A stretch of 64,000 bases of DNA from Flavihumibacter fluvii (GTDB lineage: Bacteria > Bacteroidota > Bacteroidia > Chitinophagales > Chitinophagaceae), in contig NZ_CP092333.1 of assembly GCF_018595675.2 (NCBI RefSeq), positions 458,001 to 522,000 of the forward strand, given 5' to 3'. Both the position numbers and the translations under genes were made by a program. The notes under the pieces were generated by a model. It searched no databases. It was not told where the DNA came from and worked only from the letters and a program-made list of their open reading frames with translations. Below, one piece after another: positions 26,807 through 31,906 of the stretch. Every line of letters begins with the position of its first letter. Position 1 is the first letter of the stretch.

Positions 26807-27610
26807 TTATTTATGTTCCAGTTGAACAGTATCAACTATCGTGGTTTGTCCTAATGTTACTTCTATGTTTTTCGTTGCTGTATGGAAAGAGTCAGTATCG
26901 GGATAAAAAGACAAGGCATATGAACCGGCTTTAATATCCTTGAACTGGTAATTGCCATCAAAGGTAGAAGTAGATGAAATGGTATCAGTTCCCATTATTG
27001 CGAAAACGGAAGTGTGGATGGTGTCTGGTGCAACAAAACCAATTACAATTCCGCCGGATGGTGCAAACGATAATACCCGGATAACTGGTTTTAAAATGTA
27101 ATTGCCACTATTGCCTGCTGTAACGATAGATTTTGCAGCATCAAAATCAAGGACTAGCCTGTAAAGCATTCCACCAGTGAGGTCAGTCTGAACCAGTAGC
27201 TTTAAACCGGATTCCTGGGCACTTGGGGTATTCAGCATTTCTTTTTGACCATCATTGGTTATAATATAATTATTATCACCGAGGATAAGGCGCAACTGAT
27301 TGAGACGACCTGCGGGTATGTCAGCATCAGCCAATAAAGTATCCCTGCCATTTGTAAGGTCCATCAGGTTATAAATACCCTGGTGAATATTTGGGACTGA
27401 TGTCCATGCTGCGGTATCACCGGTGTTGATTTGTATATCCTTTATATCGACCCATACTTCACGAACTGATTCGGTGGGGGCATCCGTTAACCGGATTTCC
27501 AGCCTTGCAGTTTTTGGCATGTTGTCAGTTTCATTATTTCTGTTACAGGCGCCAATTAGAGCTAATGATAAAAGACCAGCGGTTATCCGCCAAATTTGAT
27601 TTGTTTTCAT
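26807..27610 (-). CDS. DUF4382-domain lipoprotein
   Basis: A surface or periplasmic lipoprotein of 267 aa. The lipobox is LALIGAC (Cys about residue 22) followed by a polar stretch. Residues 33-190 match DUF4382: LEIRLTDAPTESVREVWVDI, then QINTGDTAAW and RLVLDFDAAKSIV. The last 70 residues (VIGFVAPDTIHTSVFAIMG, then FDGNYQFKDIKAGSY) form a carboxypeptidase-regulatory-like beta sandwich. It is a single-gene unit with a strong terminator. The role of DUF4382 is not established. Confidence 0.88.
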   Translation of the reverse strand: MKTNQIWRITAGLLSLALIGACNRNNETDNMPKTARLEIRLTDAPTESVREVWVDIKDIQINTGDTAAWTSVPNIHQGIYNLMDLTNGRDTLLADADIPAGRLNQLRLILGDNNYIITNDGQKEMLNTPSAQESGLKLLVQTDLTGGMLYRLVLDFDAAKSIVTAGNSGNYILKPVIRVLSFAPSGGIVIGFVAPDTIHTSVFAIMGTDTISSTSTFDGNYQFKDIKAGSYALSFYPDTDSFHTATKNIEVTLGQTTIVDTVQLEHK

Positions 27611-27772: not shown

Positions 27773-29032
27773 TTAAGCTATTGCCTGGAATACCAGAAGT
27801 ATGCTTGCAACAGCCATTATAGCAAGTGTGATAAAACCCAATATGTTAGCCGTTATGTTATTCGTGTAATGGAGCATGATCTTTTTATTATTGCAAATAT
27901 GCATGATGACCCCAATCAGTACCGGAGCAATCATTCCGTAAAATATGGCAGTGTATAACAATGCTTTAACAGGGCTTATATTTAAAGCCTGTATAGCAAG
28001 TCCTAGTACCAGGGAAATTGCCAGTGTGCCATAGAATCCTTTAGCCTCATGGAATTTTTTATCCAGTCCTTCTTCCCATTCAAATACTTCCGCGATCATG
28101 TAGCTAAGTGAGCCTGCCAAAACCGGTATTGCCAGTAATCCGGTGCCGATTACGCCAAGGGCAAAAAGAGCATATGCGCTTTTCCCGGCAAGGGGTTCCA
28201 GAGCCATGGCAGCTTCTTCAACAGAATTAACCTGGTGAATGCCTGCGGTAAATAATACATTTCCTGCCGCCAGGATAATGAAATAAAATACAATATTGGT
28301 CAGGAACATCCCGCCTTTTACATCTGATTCCATGGCTAATATCATGCGCTTATTTACCACAACATGGCGATGGTTAATTTCCTCCACTTCCATGGAGGTT
28401 TGCCAGAAAAAAAGATAGGGTGAGATTGTTGTCCCAAGAATGCCTACCAGTGCCATGTAATAATCCAGGTCATTTTCAAATTTTGGAATAAAAGTGTTTC
28501 TTAATGCTGCTGCCCAATTGGTATGTGTGATAAATGGAATGACCAGGTAGGCAAATAAGGTTATGCAAAGCCATTTCAGCACCGTAGAAATGATTTTATA
28601 ACTCCATACAATAAGGCTGTACATCAGTAAAAGCGTAAACACTATAGAGAAAATCCAGGCAGGAATCCGGGGTACAAGTAAATTGGCAACAGCACCCATG
28701 CCCGCGATATCAGCGCCTATATTTAGAATGATTGATGGAACACTAATGATGATTACCATATATAACAATGGCCGTGGGTAATGTCGTTTAATTATGCCTG
28801 TTAGTCCCATTCTCGAGACCAATCCGATTCGCGCACACATTTCCTGGATGCCTACCATCAGTGGATAGGAGACTATTGCGGTCCATAATAATGAATTTCC
28901 AAACCTTGCACCGGCCTGTGTATAGGTAGCTATTCCTGAAGGGTCATCATCACTCGCCCCGGTAATTAATCCGGGTCCAAGCTTCGCAAAGAATTTTCTG
29001 AATCTCGAGTAATGGGTGCCAGCCTTCTTCAT
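27773..29032 (-). CDS. Nramp-family divalent metal transporter (DPSG variant)
   Basis: A 419-aa, eleven-helix membrane carrier of the Nramp family. TM1 contains ITGASDDDPSGIATYTQAGA, where canonical Nramps have DPGN (residues 30-33 here D-P-S-G), and TM6 has ILGTTISPYLFFWQTSMEVEE instead of the usual A-x-x-M-P metal-binding methionine motif. These substitutions are typical of a divergent Nramp subgroup whose ion may not be manganese. The gene starts 42 bases after the response regulator stop in the same direction, so it is probably the last gene of the two-component operon. Confidence 0.9.
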   Translation of the reverse strand: MKKAGTHYSRFRKFFAKLGPGLITGASDDDPSGIATYTQAGARFGNSLLWTAIVSYPLMVGIQEMCARIGLVSRMGLTGIIKRHYPRPLLYMVIIISVPSIILNIGADIAGMGAVANLLVPRIPAWIFSIVFTLLLMYSLIVWSYKIISTVLKWLCITLFAYLVIPFITHTNWAAALRNTFIPKFENDLDYYMALVGILGTTISPYLFFWQTSMEVEEINHRHVVVNKRMILAMESDVKGGMFLTNIVFYFIILAAGNVLFTAGIHQVNSVEEAAMALEPLAGKSAYALFALGVIGTGLLAIPVLAGSLSYMIAEVFEWEEGLDKKFHEAKGFYGTLAISLVLGLAIQALNISPVKALLYTAIFYGMIAPVLIGVIMHICNNKKIMLHYTNNITANILGFITLAIMAVASILLVFQAIA

Positions 29033-29074
29033 GATATTCTAAATTAAAGAAAGATTGGCAGTGACGGATATAAT

Positions 29075-29755
29075 CTATTTCAGGCGGTCAGCGTTCACCC
29101 AACCTAACCTGATAGCAAAGAGTACGAGGCCCACCCGGCTTTTGACCTGTAATTTTTCAAACAGGGCTTCACGGTAGCCATCAATGGTTCTTTCACTGAG
29201 TTTCATAGTGGTTGCAATTTCCTTATAGGTCATTTCTGATGCGGCATATTGAAGGAATTCCATTTCACGCTCAGTAAGTTTAATGCCATTGTCCTGGTTC
29301 TTTTCTTCCTTGTGGATGGTGTGGATCAGTTTGCCGGTAACAAAGTCTGAATAATAGAAACCCTTTTCAATTATTTCACTCATGGCTTTATGCAACTCCG
29401 CCTGGGTGCAGTCTTTCAGCAGGTAACCGCGGCATCCTGCCCTGATCATCTGTATTACGGAAGATTCGTCATCATTCATACTGAGGGCCAGGCACCGTAC
29501 TAATGGAAATTGAACGGAAAGTTCTTTGGCAGTGATAACGCCGTTCATCACCGGCATATTGATATCAAGGATAGCTATATCAGGGAGTGTTTTTGTGGTT
29601 TTCAGCATATCCAGGAGTGCCTGGCCATTATTGGCTATTAGGATCACTTCAAAATCGGGGGTGTCATTGATGAGATGTGATAATGATTCTGCGATCAGCC
29701 GGTGGTCGTCGGCAATGGCCACCCTGTATTTTTTTTTGGATTCATTAACTGGCAT
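29075..29755 (-). CDS. LuxR/NarL-type response regulator
   Basis: DNA-binding response regulator of 226 aa. The receiver domain has the acidic pair IADDH (near residue 16-17) and the phosphoacceptor Asp64 in DIAILDINMPVMNG, with Lys near residue 115 in YLLKDCT. The C-terminal LuxR helix-turn-helix is LTEREMEFLQYAASEMTYKE followed by IATTMKLSERTIDGYREALF. It overlaps the kinase gene by 11 bases, and Nramp follows 42 bases later. The cognate kinase is almost certainly the adjacent one; regulation of the Nramp gene is inferred from position. Confidence 0.95.
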   Translation of the reverse strand: MPVNESKKKYRVAIADDHRLIAESLSHLINDTPDFEVILIANNGQALLDMLKTTKTLPDIAILDINMPVMNGVITAKELSVQFPLVRCLALSMNDDESSVIQMIRAGCRGYLLKDCTQAELHKAMSEIIEKGFYYSDFVTGKLIHTIHKEEKNQDNGIKLTEREMEFLQYAASEMTYKEIATTMKLSERTIDGYREALFEKLQVKSRVGLVLFAIRLGWVNADRLK

Positions 29756-30560
29756 GATCGTTTGATTTTGGTAAAGTGATCAAAATATCGGTTCCTTGTC
29801 CGGGCTGACTGGTTATCTGTAAATCAGCGCCTACCAATGCTGCTCTTTTCTGCAGGTTTCGGATACCAGAGCCAGCATCAGCAATATTACGACTTACTGC
29901 TTCCAGCTGGTCAAACCCTTTTCCGTTATCTTTGATATTGAGGATGAAATTCAATGGTGTGTATAGCATGGAAATGCTGATTTCAGTTGCCGCTGCATGT
30001 TTTAAAATGTTGTTGAGGATTTCCTGTATCATGCGGTAGATGACAATTTCTTTTTTTGCATCGATGGCGAAATCCTCTCCTTCTGTAATAAAGTCACATT
30101 TGATCATGGCACTTTGCTCAATCCGTTTCAATTCAAACCTGATAGATTCACGTAACCCGTAGGTGGACAGCATGTCTGAGTTGAGGCCTTTTGACAGCAT
30201 CCTGATATATTTTATAACATCTCCGAGAAGTATGTTGGTATCCTGGATCCGCTTTAGTTGAGGTTGTTCGGCCATTTCCTTTTCCAGAATATTCAGGTTG
30301 ATCCTGGCTACACTGAGTAACTGGCCCATATTGTCGTGGATTTCCTGGCTTACATCCCTCAGGGTTTGGTCGCGGCTTTCTATTTGGGTGGTTAGTACCT
30401 CCCTTTCATAGTTTTCTCTCAGTTGTTCCCGCTCGTGTTGTTGTTTCAGCCGTTTACGCTGGCCGGAAAAAATGAAATATACCACAAAGCCACTTAATGC
30501 CAGCATGATTATCACTGCAGCAGTAAGGGTATAAATAATCTCAAATTCATTTCCATTCAT
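29745..30560 (-). CDS. Sensor histidine kinase, HisKA_3 type, with no sensor domain of its own
   Basis: A 271-aa NarL-partner kinase. One N-terminal helix (about residues 9-31) anchors it, then a coiled region leads to the dimerisation box QEIHDNMGQLLSVARINL with the phosphorylated His. The ATPase domain has MIQEILNNILKHAAATE (N box), DNGKGFD (G1) and GSGIRNLQKRAALVGADL (G2). There is almost no extracytoplasmic segment, so input must come from elsewhere. The start overlaps the end of the preceding membrane-protein gene by four bases (ATGA), suggesting that protein is the sensor. Confidence 0.93.
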   Translation of the reverse strand: MNGNEFEIIYTLTAAVIIMLALSGFVVYFIFSGQRKRLKQQHEREQLRENYEREVLTTQIESRDQTLRDVSQEIHDNMGQLLSVARINLNILEKEMAEQPQLKRIQDTNILLGDVIKYIRMLSKGLNSDMLSTYGLRESIRFELKRIEQSAMIKCDFITEGEDFAIDAKKEIVIYRMIQEILNNILKHAAATEISISMLYTPLNFILNIKDNGKGFDQLEAVSRNIADAGSGIRNLQKRAALVGADLQITSQPGQGTDILITLPKSNDHAS

Positions 30561-31207
30561 GTTGCAGAATTAAGCGAAACCGGCTTTGTTTTTTGTAACA
30601 TAAAATTTAGGCTGAAGGATCCATAAAATATAAACTCACTAAATGCCTGAACGTTTACTACAACATCCTGGCCTTCATCATCCAGGAAATTATGGATACC
30701 CAGGGAAAGGAAGGATGCTATGGAATGAATCAGGATTGCGATGGCGATCCAGAACGAATGGTAATGCATGGTTTCCTCCCAGCTATGCTCCTCAAAAAGT
30801 ATGGCAATATAAAACAGTACCTGCAGGATCAATAGGACACTGATCAGGTTGATGATAATGGTATTTAATGCAATGTCTGGCGGTTGCATAAATTTAGCAT
30901 TCAGGAAAGCGGCTATAATTACCAGCGGGATGGAAATTATGTAAATCGTTTTTAATCTTTTCATCTCATTGGAAATGGCCAGCGTGAGAAAAGTATAATA
31001 TAATGGCCGAAATACATGGTATATAGGGAAATTATTCCTGAAGTACCTGGCCAGCAAAGGGTCAAGTATTTCGCCTGCCAATGCCACAAATAAAAAAAGC
31101 CAGAAGATACGGTTTGCTTCATTAAGTGTGGCATGCCGAAAAAGTCCAATTATGATAGCAACGATTATTATCGCAAATTTTATAAACGTAAGGATCATTA
31201 AATCCAT
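30557..31207 (-). CDS. Polytopic membrane protein of about seven helices, probable sensor partner
   Basis: A 216-aa hydrophobic protein I do not recognise by family. About seven transmembrane helices can be drawn, for example IKFAIIIVAIIIGLF, FWLFLFVALAGEILDPLLAR and IIINLISVLLILQVLFYIAI. A His-rich patch EETMHYHSFWIAIAILIHS and a few acidic residues (FLDDEGQD) near the last helices could bind ligand or metal. The start is the ATG at 31207, 35 bases after the upstream lipoprotein stop; the stop overlaps the kinase start. The coupling to a sensorless kinase supports a signal-input role, which remains inference. Confidence 0.8.
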   Translation of the reverse strand: MDLMILTFIKFAIIIVAIIIGLFRHATLNEANRIFWLFLFVALAGEILDPLLARYFRNNFPIYHVFRPLYYTFLTLAISNEMKRLKTIYIISIPLVIIAAFLNAKFMQPPDIALNTIIINLISVLLILQVLFYIAILFEEHSWEETMHYHSFWIAIAILIHSIASFLSLGIHNFLDDEGQDVVVNVQAFSEFIFYGSFSLNFMLQKTKPVSLNSAT

Positions 31208-31242
31208 GCTATATTCTAAATTTTTCGGTTATCAGCATGGGA

Positions 31243-31647
31243 TTAGTTACTGCAATGCGTGGGGCATGGATAATAGACCAGGTAGGCTTTTTCTGCAAAT
31301 GGGGCGGAATTGGCGCTCCTGCTTTTGTAGTTTAAAATATCTTTTGTTCCGGTTAAAATGAAAACCGGACTTTTATATTCAGGTGATTTGCCATAATAAA
31401 CCATTATGCCATTGATGCCCTCCTCGGTTCTTATGGCATCAATAATCTTTACCGGGATGTACATGCCTTGCCTGAAATCAATTTTGAATTTCGGGTCGTC
31501 TAAATAGTTCTTTTTATAGATCTCAGCTGAATCCTTACTGATTTCCCGAACCGTGAAATTTTCAGGAAATGAAGCAGTAGTGAGCCTTTTAGGGTAGCAA
31601 GCGGCTAAAAGCAGTGTGCCGGTAAGAATGATTAAAAGCTGTTTCAT
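31243..31647 (-). CDS. Small lipoprotein of unknown function
   Basis: A 134-aa lipoprotein with signal MKQLLIILTGTLLLAAC, lipobox LLAAC and Cys17. The mature part has mixed alpha/beta character (FTVREISKDSAEIYKKNY, then IPVKIIDAIRTEEGING) and a C-terminal PCPTHC motif with two cysteines. No family is recognised. It lies first in the minus-strand run with the membrane protein, kinase, regulator and Nramp, with 35 bases to the next gene, and just after the terminator of the upstream 45-aa gene. Confidence 0.8.
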   Translation of the reverse strand: MKQLLIILTGTLLLAACYPKRLTTASFPENFTVREISKDSAEIYKKNYLDDPKFKIDFRQGMYIPVKIIDAIRTEEGINGIMVYYGKSPEYKSPVFILTGTKDILNYKSRSANSAPFAEKAYLVYYPCPTHCSN

Positions 31648-31697: not shown

Positions 31698-31734
31698 TGA
31701 AAAAACCAGGGTTTGTAAAATACGCCCCCTGGTT
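31698..31734 (-). terminator. Intrinsic terminator after the 45-aa membrane protein
   Basis: Eight-base arms AACCAGGG (31704-31711) and CCCTGGTT (31727-31734) followed on the minus strand by a T-run. It separates the small gene at 31769-31906 from the lipoprotein-to-Nramp operon, which must therefore have its own promoter in the roughly 50 bases before 31647. Confidence 0.75.
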
Positions 31735-31768
31735 ATAGGTAGTAGTAAGCACACAACAAACGATTAAT

Positions 31769-31906
31769 TTAATCTTTTCGGTTCAATTTGTGATGATGTT
31801 GTCTCTGGTGATATAACATTACCATCATAGTGATGAAAACCAGCCCAGCCAGAATTACCATCACCCAGGGAAGTGCATTGACTGAGAATTCAAGCAAATT
31901 TTTCAT
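31769..31906 (-). CDS. Small single-pass membrane protein (45 aa)
   Basis: A 45-residue protein starting at the ATG at 31906: a short N-terminal segment MKNLLEFSVNALP, one hydrophobic helix WVMVILAGLVFITMMVMLY, and a basic His-rich tail (HQRQHHHKLNRKD). The longer reading from 32002 includes the inverted-repeat region and is unlikely. It is an isolated gene with a terminator behind it. No family is recognised; the His-rich tail might bind metal, but that is only a suggestion. Confidence 0.6.
   Translation of the reverse strand: MKNLLEFSVNALPWVMVILAGLVFITMMVMLYHQRQHHHKLNRKD

Follow-up and report, generated by a model that had tools for sequence, protein, structure and literature searches.

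We analysed a row of five genes on the minus strand of a 64,000-nucleotide stretch of Flavihumibacter fluvii DNA (assembly GCF_018595675.2, contig NZ_CP092333.1, positions 458,001 to 522,000), referred to here as the window. The five open reading frames (ORFs) were confirmed, together with the spacings given in an earlier, sequence-only reading of this DNA (Table 1): a 35-base gap separates the lipoprotein gene from that of a protein with seven predicted transmembrane helices (7TM), the 7TM and kinase genes overlap by 4 bases, the kinase and regulator genes overlap by 11 bases, and a gap of 42 bases lies between regulator and carrier. Above the Pfam cut-offs the kinase contains only HisKA_3 and HATPase_c and no sensory domain, as had been maintained. 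Its gene adjoins that of a receiver/GerE regulator, which identifies the two as a NarL/UhpB-type two-component gene pair, and the kinase scores best against the UhpB model, at 102.4 bits, far under that model's 408-bit cut-off. The core of the row is a recurrent four-gene module in the order small partner protein, 7TM protein, one-helix sensorless kinase and response regulator, an order conserved far beyond chance. Of the five-gene operon proposed earlier, these four genes are the conserved part; the link of the lipoprotein family to the 7TM gene had been missed, and the carrier proves to be optional. Neither the lipoprotein nor the 216-amino-acid (aa) protein of the window matched a Pfam or NCBIfam family above cut-off, and the module is without a description in the open-access literature searched, PMC8939145 and PMC9425974 included as far as consulted; subscription journals lay outside that scope, and it may be in print elsewhere. 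The object of interest is the cassette formed by the partner and 7TM genes.

Table 1. The module and its neighbouring carrier gene in the window (position 1 is the first letter of the window)
Feature	Position	Strand	Basis
Partner protein, 134-aa predicted lipoprotein ending PCPTHC	31243..31647	-	Position and motif common to the upstream genes of relatives
216-aa 7TM protein, proposed receptor subunit	30557..31207	-	AlphaFold2 model; family-charge topology; adjacency to kinases
271-aa sensorless histidine kinase: one N-terminal helix, HisKA_3, HATPase_c	29745..30560	-	Pfam
226-aa response regulator: receiver and GerE/LuxR DNA-binding domain	29075..29755	-	Pfam
419-aa NRMT-like carrier; optional neighbour, outside the core	27773..29032	-	Pfam Nramp; best solved relative 7qia

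The association of the 7TM gene with a kinase gene is seen when loci are collected through the 7TM protein. Relatives of the window protein are held by 65 of 294 genomes of the host's family, from which 40 stretches were taken, giving with the window 41 loci and 42 7TM genes. A kinase of the window's type lies -55 to +59 bases downstream of 39 of these 42, the exceptions being L041 (a gap of 236), L050 (the first of two genes in tandem) and L067 (another 7TM-like ORF intervenes). Across the phylum, a profile search found the family in 66 of 296 genomes, with copy numbers that are lower bounds because only 10 candidates were scored in most genomes. A further 20 stretches were read, 19 from survey genomes holding the 7TM family and one from the F. 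fluvii genome itself; a kinase of some type follows the 7TM gene in 19 of them (all but L197), and a partner-profile match (E up to 1) stands beside it in 17 (all but L185, L188 and L194). The F. fluvii genome holds two further 7TM copies, each followed by a kinase.

The same association emerges from the kinase side. A profile of 13 module kinases retrieved at least 559 relatives in named genomes, and a 7TM gene lies directly upstream of the kinase in 78 of the best 80 loci, a set biased towards module kinases; of the other two, L081 is without a 7TM gene and the record of L083 begins just before the kinase. A less biased test used 12 whole genomes, in which 69 kinases matched the profile at E 1e-25 or better. 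Among the short kinases (open frame of 341 aa or less, a limit chosen after the list had been seen), match coordinates place a 7TM gene no more than 300 bases upstream of 24 of the 28, whereas none of the 41 longer kinases has one by that measure, and only one has one after reading of the ORFs, a kinase of genome G540 with a 406-aa open frame and a 7TM gene 150 bases upstream (L199). These 12 genomes contain 37 7TM genes, one match of 6.5e-4 in a 669-aa frame having been dropped. Short module-type kinases lie within 300 bases of 24, and the other 13 were read by hand: four precede another 7TM gene that has a kinase, two (G540, L199) lead to the kinase with the 406-aa frame, and seven precede kinases missed by the cut-off (L206, L207, L189, L193 and the triple tandem of L204), those of L206 and L207 being HisKA_3 kinases (below cut-off in L207). 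In total, all 37 7TM genes lead to a kinase gene, 13 of them by reading of the loci, which is the reverse of the outcome that the sequence-only reading had set against its own proposal, namely a membrane protein occurring mostly apart from the kinase.

Upstream of the 7TM gene there is usually a gene for a small protein. In the kinase-anchored set an upstream ORF is present at 73 of 78 sites, and CPx(1-2)C occurs in 38 of these 73, compared with 5 of 439 other ORFs when counted anywhere and 0 of 439 when counted in the last 60 residues; the choice of upstream ORF favoured matches to the partner profile and includes some clearly unrelated genes, and the comparison ORFs are frames of at least 100 aa rather than proven genes. 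Among 37 aligned partners (37 of the 42 sites, L040, L054, L057, L065 and the first L050 site having been left out beforehand), C128 and C132 are at least 90% conserved and P129 is invariant. A CPxxC-type motif near the end is a feature of most partners. When the partner profile was run against 20 genomes chosen for having 7TM genes, it gave 18 matches in 13 of them, every one situated 2-215 bases upstream of a 7TM gene. The conserved upstream place, the motif and the confinement of matches to the neighbourhood of 7TM genes lead us to reject the possibility that the lipoprotein is a bystander. Like several others, the window partner is predicted to be a lipoprotein. Compared by profile with signals removed, the window's partner group matched group A8 with a probability of 84.9% (score 36.3, shuffled maximum 15.2), and A8 matched the cytosolic group A7 with a probability of 51.6% (score 31.1, shuffled maximum 21.9). 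The model of the partner is of middling quality, with a predicted local distance difference test (pLDDT) of 78.2 and a predicted template modelling score (pTM) of 0.67; its fold search gave a best Foldseek E of 0.78 and no VIA row with Z of 5 or more, and the partner profile against solved chains returned eight chance-level rows, the best at E 0.14. Isolated family matches, one member each (best NF052533 at 1.7e-4), were set aside, as was a PHROG match of the window lipoprotein covering residues 1-39 only, including the signal.

The conserved cysteine pair raises the possibility that the partner itself is the sensor, the CPxxC pair acting as a thiol-disulfide or metal switch whose state the 7TM protein only relays to the kinase. 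The conservation of both cysteines and the enrichment of the motif described above are consistent with such a role. However, whole sub-groups (e.g., L062, L104, L112, L116) keep the protein without the cysteines, and no solved fold resembles the partner model, so that we regard this interpretation as unlikely. In the upstream ORFs of L104, L112 and L116, and in L192, L195 and L196, a PP near the end is kept where the CPxxC cysteines have been lost.

The AlphaFold2 model of the 7TM protein is of high confidence (pLDDT 93.8, pTM 0.90) and contains seven long helices. Charges across the family put the N-terminus outside and the C-terminus, like loops 1 and 3, inside, with loop 5 neutral. In 56 aligned members the most conserved residues include F152 (54/56) and W153 (53/56), with further conservation at Y63, Y195, E46, N59, H/N64, N103 and Q108. 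Structural comparison by VIA-align placed first the domain of LYCHOS that resembles a G-protein-coupled receptor (GPCR), with Z 14.7, a root-mean-square deviation of 3.7 and 202 aligned residues; below it stand GPCRs, with Z down to 12.9 at rank 50. Because helical bundles often reach such Z values, we claim for the modelled protein only a GPCR/rhodopsin-like arrangement, and not descent. Foldseek gave no match for the model at E of 0.001 or better, and the 7TM profile found no solved relative by sequence at E 1 or better. Likewise, neither a scan of 39 members nor one of 56 gave a match to the 7TMR-DISM_7TM profile at E 0.01, and hhalign against 13 7TMR-DISM segments gave a probability of 4.4% and a score of 22.4 (reversed 19.6, shuffled maximum 17.2), leaving membership in 7TMR-DISM without support at the profile level. 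The 5TM-5TMR_LYT family had no match at all in 25 related genomes. Isolated matches of 7TM members, one each (best Cation_efflux at 5e-4), were set aside; the NCBIfam scan covered the window's protein alone among them. The sequence-only reading had taken this protein as the likely input of the kinase, which the recurrent adjacency supports, and had remarked on its His-rich patch. The patch is present in the window protein, on a loop for which a cytoplasmic location is predicted weakly at best, but His occurs at position 148 in only 4 of 56 aligned members and at 150 in 4 of 56; as the residues are not conserved, we reject the patch as a metal sensor.

Tandem copies of the partner-7TM pair precede a single kinase in L050 and in L199, and 7TM genes are repeated behind one partner in L186, L204 and L205. 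Three consecutive 7TM genes stand between one partner gene and one kinase in L186:4414-7944 and L204:3137-7202, and these triple rows are possible receptor arrays. At L189:4236-6984 a partner and 7TM gene lie beside a LytS-type His_kinase with a LytTR regulator, and in L193 (HisKA below cut-off) and L204, both from one genome, the cassette lies beside PAS-HisKA kinases. A few partner-7TM sets beside LytS-type or PAS-HisKA kinases therefore look like an interchangeable input cassette. A 7TM gene at L209:4507-7074 also lies beside a LytS-type kinase, with a LytTR regulator on the other strand and no partner detected there.

Taken together, the contrast between short and longer kinases, the partner beside the 7TM gene and the occurrence with other kinase classes argue for an input cassette, and since many relatives carry this gene set too, the partner and the 7TM protein probably form a so far undescribed receptor that plugs into kinases. 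Our preferred reading, to which we assign a probability of roughly 0.7, is that the first four genes specify a single signalling complex whose receptor has been split off from the kinase. In such a complex the 7TM protein would be the sensing subunit in the inner membrane and the small partner its dedicated regulatory subunit, which in F. fluvii, being a lipoprotein, would act from the periplasmic side. Within the membrane, the 7TM protein would hand on its state sideways to the sensorless kinase, through that kinase's single helix and coiled coil; the kinase would phosphorylate the LuxR-type regulator, and the regulator would change transcription. Physical binding, the direction of control, the side on which the partner acts and any ligand are what we infer here. 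A broader extension, that Bacteroidota have their own GPCR-like signalling in which a stand-alone 7TM receptor is gated by a cognate small protein, with the CPxxC-type tail as docking or switching element, and is plugged interchangeably into at least three kinase classes, is offered tentatively and is more apt to fail than to hold.

Several observations weigh against the split-receptor reading. In seven of the 20 genomes chosen for their 7TM genes the partner profile found no match, 4 of the 28 short kinases are without an upstream 7TM gene, and L197 (two genes), L210 and L211 have 7TM genes with no kinase directly downstream. In some loci the kinase carries PAS domains of its own. By a simple rule, a hydrophobic stretch at the N-terminus is present in only 6 of the 53 partners of the kinase-anchored set, a count that misjudges L073, whose start was called too long; most partners in that set look cytosolic by this prediction, and a periplasmic site of action therefore cannot be general. 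The window's lipoprotein group also matched A7 weakly (probability 4.3%, score 20.7, shuffled maximum 14.3).

Operon position cannot separate input from output, and this leaves room for an interpretation in which the 7TM protein is no receptor but restrains the kinase or helps to assemble it, in the manner of LiaF with LiaS, and the partner gene belongs to the output of the operon. A precedent exists in LiaF, which regulates LiaRS negatively according to the portion of the source consulted (PMC3543457). The 7TM protein, however, has conserved residues on the predicted outer face (the E46 to Q108 stretch), and partner and 7TM genes are duplicated together, observations that make this interpretation quite improbable. 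As far as the consulted portions of the sources describe them, LiaFSR and VraTSR of Firmicutes likewise combine kinase and regulator with a further membrane protein in a single operon (PMC3543457, PMC9380581). Unlike the F. fluvii module, these systems have no CPxxC partner. LiaF and VraT are not known to be 7TM proteins.

Other known systems share some of these elements with the split receptor that we propose. The UhpABC(T) system of enterobacteria likewise has a separate membrane protein for a HisKA_3 kinase and LuxR-type regulator, with a carrier gene nearby. That separate membrane subunit, UhpC, is a transporter-like protein, whereas the proposed F. fluvii subunit is a 7TM protein of 216 aa that has a small partner of its own, and the carrier there is not a constant part. 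BtsS, a LytS-type protein, likewise has seven helices with an outer N-terminus as kinase input, according to the part of the source consulted (PMC10653868). In BtsS and 7TMR-DISM proteins, however, a single protein contains both the 7TM part and the kinase or effector, whereas the F. fluvii 7TM protein is encoded by a separate gene. For QseG-QseE, the consulted part of the source describes a lipoprotein that is encoded with a two-component system and activates the kinase through its C-terminal domain, a precedent for activation of a kinase by a lipoprotein, and mentions no 7TM subunit (PMC12691602).

The carrier differs from the four core genes in its distribution. Its nearest solved chain, at 163.8 bits with the next at 77.5, is 7qia, which we take to be EleNRMT, a member of the Nramp-related magnesium transporters (NRMTs) of the SLC11/NRAMP family. 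In the part of the source consulted, the binding-site signature of Nramps is DxxN-A/CxxM and that of NRMTs DxxG-TxxA/T; the window carrier shares DxxG in helix 1 (DPSG), but its second motif is TTIS, that is, TxxS in place of TxxA/T (PMC8806188). From these motifs and matches the carrier is predicted to resemble Mg2+ NRMTs rather than Mn/Fe Nramps. At E 1e-60 it occurs in 5 of 15 genomes of the genus, in 6 copies, three of which lie directly after the regulator (G000, G179, G586) and two about 1.6-1.7 kilobases (kb) away from it (G272, G582); around the sixth, the 10 kb read contained no gene of the module. The carrier overlaps the regulator by 4 bases in L032; in L031 an opposite-strand gene separates the two; and G231, G008 and G108 have the module and not the carrier. 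A scan of the other 35 family loci showed no Nramp-like gene. Linkage in only part of the genus leads us to reject the carrier as an integral part of the module, as which it had earlier been counted; it is an optional, lineage-specific neighbour, and it may be one target gene of the module. The suggestion that the carrier signals metal control in general, with the membrane protein sensing a metal and the system controlling the carrier, draws on the copies directly behind or close to the regulator and on the overlap in L032, but the unconserved His residues, the patchy occurrence of the carrier in the genus, the intervening gene of L031, the scan of the other family loci and the Mg2+-type appearance of the carrier render it very unlikely.

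Several further features surround the module. Just upstream, at 31769-31906 (minus strand) of the window, lies a 45-aa single-helix ORF with a His-rich end, which is kept in five other genus loci (L031-L034, L238) and was not found in L035. Between this ORF and the lipoprotein gene, at about 31700-31735 (minus strand), a CCAGGG...CCCTGG hairpin followed by a T run was noted by eye; it is common to some genus rows in the alignment of upstream stretches and is probably the terminator of the 45-aa ORF. The seven upstream stretches aligned share a hairpin-like and a promoter-like stretch in some rows only, and no regulator binding site upstream of the operon could be named from them. Downstream of the carrier, at 26807-27610 (minus strand), is a DUF4382 lipoprotein-like gene that is syntenic within the genus. 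In L034, from a genus member without the carrier, a gene for a 299-aa exported, beta-rich-looking protein (L034:11367-12266) directly follows the regulator.

Many short kinases of Bacteroidota look sensorless. If the split-receptor reading is true, their sensor is encoded next door, and the input of a large set of kinases would become directly testable. It would also add two unnamed protein families, one of them GPCR-like in the arrangement of its seven helices, and a receptor cassette that can be swapped between kinases.

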